DNA from: Bacilli bacterium
GTDB taxonomy: Bacteria > Bacillota_I > Bacilli_A > RF39 > UBA660
Assembly: GCA_017544165.1 (NCBI GenBank)
Contig: JAFYER010000007.1
Coordinates: forward strand, 1-38,379
DNA: 38,379 bases
Direction of reading: 5' to 3'
In this document: piece after piece, positions 31,849-34,092 of the stretch
Layout: every line of letters starts with the position of its first letter
How positions within the stretch are numbered: the stretch's first letter is position 1
Program-made: the position numbers and the translations under genes
Notes under the pieces: model-generated
What the model was told of the DNA's origin: nothing
The model's database searches: none
Seen by the model: only the letters and a program-made list of their open reading frames with translations

Positions 31849-34092
31849 ATGAAAAAGAAAAGTACGATAATAGTAATAATTTCAATGATAATACTTTTAA
31901 CAATAATTGCTTTAGCATCCTATTCTTTTTTTGGCTTATCTAATTTAAACATTACGAATGCGGTTAATTTAAATACCACTACGGAAAGAAATAATATGGT
32001 ATTTGATACTTTAGGTGGTAGTTTTAACTTACATGTAGATGCTGGTGATATGACTGAATATTTAAGTGGAAATATAGCAGCAGAGAACAATACTACCTTA
32101 ACAGTTAATTTCCAAGCAAATACTAGTTATGCATCAGTATGCACATATGATATAGTTTATGAATGGACAAGCACTAATAAATATCAAGCTCACACTACTG
32201 GTGTAACAGAAAAAGAATTTACTATACAGGCTGAGCTAACTTCAAACACACATGTATCACAAGGAATAAATTATATTCAGGGTGAAACTGACTTATCAGT
32301 AGTGGTTGGAAGCCAAAATAGTGCTACTGTTGTATCTGGCGCTCAAATAGATAGTACTGGAACTACAATGAATACAGCTGTTTGGACTTTAACAACTAGA
32401 TTTCACAATGCAAATGGAGATCAAACATCACTAGCAGGTAAAACATATTCTGGTAGGTTTAAAGTAGCTAATGTTTCATGCGTGGGAGGAACAAGACAAC
32501 TAACCTTAACTGAATATTTAATTAATGATGCTCCAAAAAGCGGAACAGATGCAGTATCAAGTAGTCCTTGGATATTAACATCAGATCATACAGGAGAATG
32601 GCGTTATGTAGGCAAAAATCCAAATAATTATATTCAATTTAATGGCGAATTGTGGCGAATAATAGGGGTAATGCCTGGCATGACTTATTGTACTGGAGAA
32701 TATGGAAATGCAAATGAATGTGACACTACCTCCACTGGTAGTTTAGTTAAAATAATACGAAATCAATCAATTAGCAGTAGCGCGTTGCGTTGGGATTATA
32801 AACAAACAGGAGTAGGCTCATCAACATCAAAGTATGGTTCAAACGACTGGAGTGATAGTCAGATAATGCTTATGCTAAATGGAACAAATTATTTAAAAAC
32901 AGGATATGATGTAAATGGAACTAAGCTGCATACAAGTTATACGATAACGAGCAATGTGGTCGCTGGGAATGGATATAACTATTATAATGCAACATATAGC
33001 TATCTCGATGGTAACGGAACAGCAGTATATACGCCAAGTAGTGCTACAACAAGCAGTTATACAGCCACAAGTGGAAGTGTTTATAAAAAAATTGAAAGTA
33101 GTGCACTATCACAAATAGCAACAGTCAAATGGGATTTATATGGATCGGGTAGTTATTTTAATTCCCTTATACCAAGTCTGGGAAGTCCAATCGACTTTTA
33201 TAATAAAGAAAGAAATATAAATGATCTAGGATCAGTATATGAAAATAGACCAGTGTATTGGTATGGAAAAATAGGACTTATGTATCCAAGTGATTATGGG
33301 TATGCTACTAATGGTGGAAACACATACGATAGAAATACTTGTTTAGGATATAAAATGTTTGGATGGAGTAGTGGTGATTATAAAACGGATTGTGCAACAA
33401 ATAGTTATCTATGGTATAACAACATAACATCGACAGCGCCAACAAGTGGTGCGAATCAATGGACAATGACACCGCGCTCTGGTTACGCGTTCTATGTGTT
33501 CTTTGTCCTTAGCAGCGGCTACTTGATCGACTATAACACCTACATCGCCGATGCGGTCCGCCCCGTATTATATTTAAAAGCTGATACAAAAATAATTGGT
33601 GGAAATGGTTCTTGGAGTAATCCCTATACAATTGAAGAAAAACAATATTGGTTTCCAAATAGATTTTCATACGGATATACTTATCCAGAAATTGGGGGAG
33701 AAGTTCAAACTCGTGGAACTCAATCAGGATATAATGTTTATGTAGGTCAAGATAGTTATAATTATTATAATTGTGCAACAATATATGGAAATGAAATATG
33801 TTTAAGCCAACCATATACGCAATATGGGTTATCCGGACATACAATAAATAGTAATTTTACAGCAGAACAACAAACAAGTGTTAAGCAAGCGATATATCAA
33901 ATAATTATTAATGCCGGACTTAACATTAATATTAATGAAGACTGTTCTGCATCATCAATGGATGGTTATTGCGCCGCTGGCGATTTTGAAATAGAAATTG
34001 ATAATGAAGGAAGTATTACAATTCTTGATTATGCCAATAACAAACATTGCGTTTTAACACCTGATGTTGTTTATTGTGAAAGTACCGGTTAA
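31849..34092 (+). CDS. Large signal-anchored surface protein with lectin-like variable region
   Basis: A 747-residue exported protein. An N-terminal membrane helix (~6-28) acts as anchor or signal. Residues ~30-210 are strand-rich and resemble a secreted fibre or adhesin head. From ~215 a long domain begins (LTEYLINDAP, then WRIIGVMPGM), and its end has the phrase WTMTPRSGY, a diversified stretch, and then AVRPVLYLKAD (residues ~538-577). This order matches the C-type-lectin/sulfatase-modifying-like fold of DUF6273-type and DGR target proteins. The last ~150 residues include NGSWSNPYTIE and a Cys-rich tail. Twelve cysteines in total, often close in pairs, suggest disulfides. AGAGGT precedes the ATG. 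The ligand is unknown; ligand binding and display are inferred from fold and from the variable region. Confidence 0.85.
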   Translation: MKKKSTIIVIISMIILLTIIALASYSFFGLSNLNITNAVNLNTTTERNNMVFDTLGGSFNLHVDAGDMTEYLSGNIAAENNTTLTVNFQANTSYASVCTYDIVYEWTSTNKYQAHTTGVTEKEFTIQAELTSNTHVSQGINYIQGETDLSVVVGSQNSATVVSGAQIDSTGTTMNTAVWTLTTRFHNANGDQTSLAGKTYSGRFKVANVSCVGGTRQLTLTEYLINDAPKSGTDAVSSSPWILTSDHTGEWRYVGKNPNNYIQFNGELWRIIGVMPGMTYCTGEYGNANECDTTSTGSLVKIIRNQSISSSALRWDYKQTGVGSSTSKYGSNDWSDSQIMLMLNGTNYLKTGYDVNGTKLHTSYTITSNVVAGNGYNYYNATYSYLDGNGTAVYTPSSATTSSYTATSGSVYKKIESSALSQIATVKWDLYGSGSYFNSLIPSLGSPIDFYNKERNINDLGSVYENRPVYWYGKIGLMYPSDYGYATNGGNTYDRNTCLGYKMFGWSSGDYKTDCATNSYLWYNNITSTAPTSGANQWTMTPRSGYAFYVFFVLSSGYLIDYNTYIADAVRPVLYLKADTKIIGGNGSWSNPYTIEEKQYWFPNRFSYGYTYPEIGGEVQTRGTQSGYNVYVGQDSYNYYNCATIYGNEICLSQPYTQYGLSGHTINSNFTAEQQTSVKQAIYQIIINAGLNININEDCSASSMDGYCAAGDFEIEIDNEGSITILDYANNKHCVLTPDVVYCESTG
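33471..33567 (+). other. Candidate DGR variable region (VR)
   Basis: This 97-base block has 53 G or C (55%, counted by eye), while the gene around it is about 35% and the window about 28-30%. In frame, 19 of the 30 codons from 33475 to 33564 end in C, and most are of the type NNC (TAC, TTC, GTC, AGC, GGC, ATC, GAC, AAC, ACC, GCC). This is what adenine-directed mutagenesis of AAC codons produces. The 3' end is a G/C-rich run (GCGGTCCGCCCCGT), comparable to the G/C element next to the initiation site of known DGRs. The encoded part lies between TPRS and VRPVLYL of the lectin-like fold. No template repeat or reverse transcriptase is in the window. Confidence 0.65.

Follow-up and report, generated by a model that had tools for sequence, protein, structure and literature searches.

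A probable DGR variable region located away from the DGR core, with fixed bases that suggest a sister template unseen in the assembly

In Treponema denticola one DGR core serves targets spread over the whole chromosome, and the remote variable region (VR) of strain SP32 fits the template repeat (TR) of another strain better, for which either a leftover or an acquisition has been proposed (PMC4891356). Remote or incomplete loci are also present in Thiohalocapsa PB-PSB1, where most of them are diversified, apparently in trans, as argued from population data (PMC10907252). The remote variable proteins of cyanobacteria are dispersed, paralogous lectin-type targets, often with kinase or protease domains (PMC7517822). 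In the Bordetella phage BPP-1, which has one target, transfer from TR to VR is accompanied by mutagenesis of adenines (A), the homing end is G/C-rich and efficient retrohoming needs a hairpin after the VR; these hairpins lie 4-34 bases from the VR and have 4-base GRNA loops (PMC3240598). The VR regions annotated so far are tied to lectin folds, and Roux et al. state of their own catalogue that targets remote from the reverse transcriptase (RT) were missed (PMC8144416).

The window analysed here is the whole of contig C3 (38,379 bases) of an assembly of 1.05 Mb which was judged 88 % complete. It contains a gene for a putative variable protein with the following features:

31849..34092, + strand: variable (target) protein gene, 747 aa (translation; frame intact)
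31849..31935, + strand: N-terminal membrane anchor, MKKKSTIIVIISMIILLTIIALASYSFFG (read from the sequence)
32494..33633, + strand: domain holding the variable region, with a predicted C-type-lectin-like fold (AlphaFold2 model, structural matches)
33472..33564, + strand: probable DGR VR of 31 codons, including 19 NNC codons (aligns with the TR without gaps; A-site statistics)
33553..33564, + strand: G/C-rich 3' end of the VR, GCGGTCCGCCCC (comparison with the C10 target and the TR)
33646..34089, + strand: C-terminal Cys-rich module, AT-rich in this gene (homology to modules of the related genome G003)

The product is laid out as an N-terminal hydrophobic anchor, which suggests surface display, followed by the lectin-like variable domain and the Cys-rich module. 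About 20 paralogous matches to the gene were found within its own genome, and no Pfam or NCBIfam match was obtained for the 747-aa protein. As in cyanobacteria, the predicted lectin-type targets are dispersed paralogues, although the cyanobacterial proteins often carry kinase or protease domains in place of the anchor and Cys-rich module seen here (PMC7517822).

A preliminary description had reported a sharply bounded G/C-rich block, rich in NNC codons, which interrupts the gene without breaking its frame, and these statements were borne out. The G+C content of positions 33471-33567 was 54.6 %, that of the in-frame block (33472-33564, 93 bases) was 56 %, and the 747-aa open reading frame was intact. 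Among 10,693 other 31-codon windows in the main genes of contig C3, which served as background, the mean G+C content was 30 % and the number of NNC codons averaged 2.6 (sd 1.5) and never exceeded 9, compared with 19 of 31 in the block. In the protein the block is placed between WTMT and VLYLK; the flanks quoted previously, WTMTPRS and VRPVLYLK, were correct to within about one residue. The edge of the block coincides with the end of homology to the TR, at GCGGTCCGCCCC|GTATTATATT. By analogy with BPP-1, GCGGTCCGCCCC is likely to be the initiation-of-mutagenic-homing site of the window VR; it is identical in the C10 target gene, whereas the present TR reads GGCGTCCGGCCC there.

The fold of the variable domain was modelled with AlphaFold2 from residues 216-595 of the protein and 20 aligned relatives (pLDDT 82.6, pTM 0.89). 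At Z 15.2, an IgA peptidase gave the top structural match with its N-terminal part, followed by the Lcl C-terminal domain (Z 5.0), CLEC9A (Z 3.9) and Mtd of BPP-1 (Z 3.7), with a fimbrial protein and formylglycine-enzyme-type proteins also at Z 3 to 5. Below the top match most hits were lectin-type or formylglycine-enzyme-type folds, all at low Z. The model moderately supports a C-type-lectin-like fold, although Z values of this size can also reflect a common arrangement. A sequence search of the PDB with a profile of the variable domain gave no match.

Genome-wide profile searches gave a single match each for RVT_1 and bAvd, both on contig C1. In the sequence of this contig a target gene, a hairpin, the TR, a small ORF, a MutS-domain-I-like ORF, an Avd-like ORF and the RT gene follow one another on one strand:

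C1:3806-5569: target gene of the cassette
C1:5645-5737: template repeat (TR)
C1:7080-7748: RT, RVT_1 match of 67.9 bits (profile search)

The RT (354 aa) contains YMDD and IGNMSSQ, the latter of which we take as the variant of the RT motif typical of DGRs. Between the VR of the C1 target and the TR there are 17 differences, each of which falls on a TR adenine (p = 3e-10), while 61 of 61 non-A sites are identical. The Avd-like ORF scored 31.8 bits against bAvd (cut-off 40) and 43.7 bits against DivGenRetAVD (cut-off 80), and the MutS-I-like ORF 19.1 bits against MutS_I (cut-off 20.6). Both accessories were accepted although they scored below the curated cut-offs; the gene order is the one expected for a DGR. 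On this sequence evidence the C1 locus is judged a complete DGR. Accessories known from DGRs include HRDC and MSL (PF01624) (PMC10053308). T. denticola likewise has one core with chromosome-wide targets, but its accessory is HRDC and it belongs to another phylum (PMC4891356).

The window VR aligned with the TR at C1:5645-5737 without gaps, which identifies the block as a remote (trans) variable region; since the contigs are unordered, its distance from the RT can only be given as at least about 10 kb. At 48 of the 61 non-A sites the two sequences match, and they differ at 19 A sites and 13 non-A sites. Because of these 13 mismatches, which are more than noise, the present TR would not have written the window block. 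The same letter as in the window is found at 11 of the 13 sites in the VR of a target gene on contig C10, and at 9 of those 11 also in the VR of one on contig C4:

C10:27367-29181: C10 target gene
C4:24012-25784: C4 target gene

Compared with each other, the window and C10 VRs differ at 23 positions, of which 20 are TR-A sites (p = 2e-9), and the window and C4 VRs at 34, of which 27 are TR-A sites (p = 3e-12). Third codon positions within the VR are identical at 30/31 (C10) and 29/31 (C4) positions, or 94-97 %, against 272/395 and 233/385 (61-69 %) in the 5' flank. A common AAC-rich template would be expected to leave this trace, with third positions constant and the first two random. We therefore consider it very probable that the window block is the VR of a DGR target gene located away from the DGR core. 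The preliminary description had proposed such a target, diversified in trans, and had suggested searching the genome for a near-copy beside a DGR-type RT; both were found on a different contig, the near-copy being gapless and AAC-rich. Its remark that RT, Avd and template were absent holds for the 38-kb window but not for the genome, since all three are on C1, and its expectation of a copy differing mainly at A agrees with the 19 A-site differences, with the refinement that the present TR also departs from the block at 13 non-A sites. The case for diversification in trans is comparable to that of Thiohalocapsa PB-PSB1, except that there it was made from population data and here from the comparison of paralogues only (PMC10907252).

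In the mechanism proposed here, the RT together with Avd would copy a G/C-rich, AAC-rich template RNA, random bases would be inserted opposite template adenines during copying, and the resulting cDNA would replace the VR, so that NNC codons remain. The window protein would be anchored at the surface and would bind varied ligands, and the window copy, which has no downstream hairpin, would now be weakly active or retired.

As the window, C10 and C4 VRs agree at the sites where they mismatch the present TR and differ from each other mainly at TR-A sites, we infer that the most recent writing of all three used a sister template, unseen in the assembly. This template would have GCG, AGCAGCGGC and GCGGTCCGCCCC as its fixed bases. 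It may be a second TR within the 12 % of the genome that the assembly lacks, the C1 TR in a former state or part of a lost cassette. A pattern search for a second TR fitting the window VR in the genus, in 193 genomes of the family and in IMG/VR gave none. The remote VR of T. denticola SP32 fits the TR of another strain, whereas no genome is known to carry the template of these three VRs, and three VRs with a common unseen template set the present case apart from T. denticola (PMC4891356).

On C10 the TR leader and hairpin occur once more (L009/L028, C10:29175-29432), followed there by a chimera with a TR-like 5' half and a 3' half which resembles the VR of another gene. This copy was rejected as the missing template, as its bases fit the C1 TR (GCC) and not the window type (GCG), and because of its VR-like 3' half. 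It is possibly a scar left when TR-VR recombination deleted a second cassette. Another G/C-rich NNC block was observed on the same contig (L012:3139-3234), in a 757-aa paralogue at C10:68755-70983 with a 3' extension like that of the window gene; its fixed bases fit the C1 TR in part, and it has a 3-base insertion.

The targets on C1, C10 and C4 share a hairpin, CCTGCCGG-(8-9 bases)-CCGGCAGG, which a direct inverted-repeat scan located 97 bases after the VR. These targets resemble BPP-1 in TR-to-VR transfer, A mutagenesis, the G/C-rich homing end and the presence of a hairpin, but differ from it in the distance of the hairpin and the size of its loop (PMC3240598). In the 220 bases 3' of the window VR, the scan revealed no hairpin of at least 8 bp, and in its place the gene runs on into the C-terminal module; in this the window VR differs from that of BPP-1, where efficient retrohoming depends on the hairpin (PMC3240598).

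The missing hairpin suggests that the window VR may be retired, i.e. written earlier by the DGR from a template which has since vanished, diversification having ended when the hairpin and the matching template were lost. This is a sub-case of the preferred explanation, from which it differs in present activity only, and we give it slightly less than an even chance. Besides the absent hairpin, the 13 non-A sites at which the window VR departs from the present TR argue for it, and the leftover proposed for T. denticola SP32 provides a precedent (PMC4891356). The blocks of the paralogues also form a graded series, from G/C-rich and TR-like to AT-rich and unlike the TR (Spearman 0.78, p = 0.002), which is the pattern expected if retired VRs drifted towards the AT-rich background. 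The window VR itself shows no AT drift, and its third positions are 97 % identical to those of C10, so any retirement would be recent. Retention of a G/C-rich block by the C10:68755 gene, which has a similar 3' extension, also speaks against retirement.

Gene conversion from a C10-type gene, in which case the window block would never have been written by the DGR directly, is improbable. In its favour, the window protein shares 73 % identity with that of C10, and two upstream stretches of 60 bases reach 94-95 % DNA identity, but conversion would have homogenised the A sites too, of which 20 of 32 differ. Moreover, the block stops precisely where TR homology stops, and the bases flanking it on the 3' side differ. 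A scenario of plain duplication in which diversifying (positive) selection then acted on a ligand-binding loop, with no retroelement involved, is less probable still, even though the genome holds about 20 paralogous matches and the block corresponds to a predicted loop and strand region of the lectin-like domain. Selection would not conserve third codon positions above the level of the flanks, limit changes to the sites at which an unlinked sequence has A, or yield a G/C-rich NNC block, and a DGR core exists in the genome. A horizontally gained G/C-rich insertion with no relation to a DGR, to which only the abrupt change in composition would point, can be set aside, given the gapless match to the TR and to the paralogue VRs at the equivalent position of the protein.

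Remote DGR variable regions, the explanation preferred for the window block, were also found in relatives of the same genus. The genomes G005, G006 and G009 have the identical cassette order, and across the aligned core of the repeats their TR-VR changes are A-only. One VR of G005, about 33 kb away from the RT, agrees with the cassette TR for about 75 bases, apart from two non-A mismatches, up to an indel. Such VRs in relatives indicate that remote targets are recurrent in the genus. Two remote lectin-domain targets of G005 (L077, L078) have a hairpin, CCTCGCGA...TCGCGAGG, 117-118 bases after the VR. A second TR/VR pair with an RT and a different target was observed on another contig of G006 (L075, G006:C42), the RT match being in two pieces. 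G002 (L079, L080), a genome which is 71 % complete, likewise contains several G/C-rich NNC blocks of this type. No RT was detected in G002 or G003, both assemblies having been searched.

In G003 the family of the window gene is very large (96 matches), and many of the copies have at their end a Cys-rich module with homology to window positions 33646-34089. At least 12 genes (among L081-L100, e.g. L094:852-1334) show, within this module, an NNC block of DGR-like character in which Cys codons are fixed. Pairwise identity among 12 copies at codon positions 1, 2 and 3 was 0.64, 0.62 and 0.79 in the block, and 0.82, 0.86 and 0.64 in the flank. Behind many of the blocks lies a common tail that contains a hairpin with a GACA or GATA loop, which fits, by analogy, the GRNA rule of BPP-1-type targets. 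The Cys-rich module of G003 would accordingly appear, from these sequence patterns, to carry a DGR-diversified block; no template for it was seen in the assembly. Its model reached a pLDDT of 88.8, and the structural matches listed included no lectin chain and none above Z 5.2. The module is apparently non-lectin, though it may still be related to lectins.

One G003 contig breaks off within the gene orthologous to the C1 cassette target, in a region syntenic with C1:410-3800 (L120, C20:49500-54067), and the DGR core of G003 may probably be placed just past this break. Four further contig ends, on C13, C16 and C17 (L108, L109, L111, L112), stop in one VR sequence, which reflects a VR that several genes have in identical form, or else a branch point of the assembly. 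These identical sequences were also considered as the TR of G003 and rejected, as they resemble VR copies.

The type of DGR system described here is already known, and the point of interest is the unseen template of the window VR. Surveys of VRs which are restricted to the neighbourhood of the RT overlook targets such as the window gene, whereas the NNC block is a marker by which remote VRs can be detected from sequence alone. The fixed bases of old VRs preserve a record of vanished templates, and G003 suggests that DGRs can also randomise a Cys-rich module. Tentatively, and with somewhat more doubt than confidence, we propose for this genus a network of trans diversification spanning the genome, in which one conserved chromosomal DGR locus would write many dispersed genes for anchored surface proteins. 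Its templates would be replaced over time, and all that survives of the old ones would be the fixed bases in retired VRs. In a sibling species the writing would have shifted from the lectin-like domain to a disulfide-rich, non-lectin C-terminal module in at least a dozen genes.
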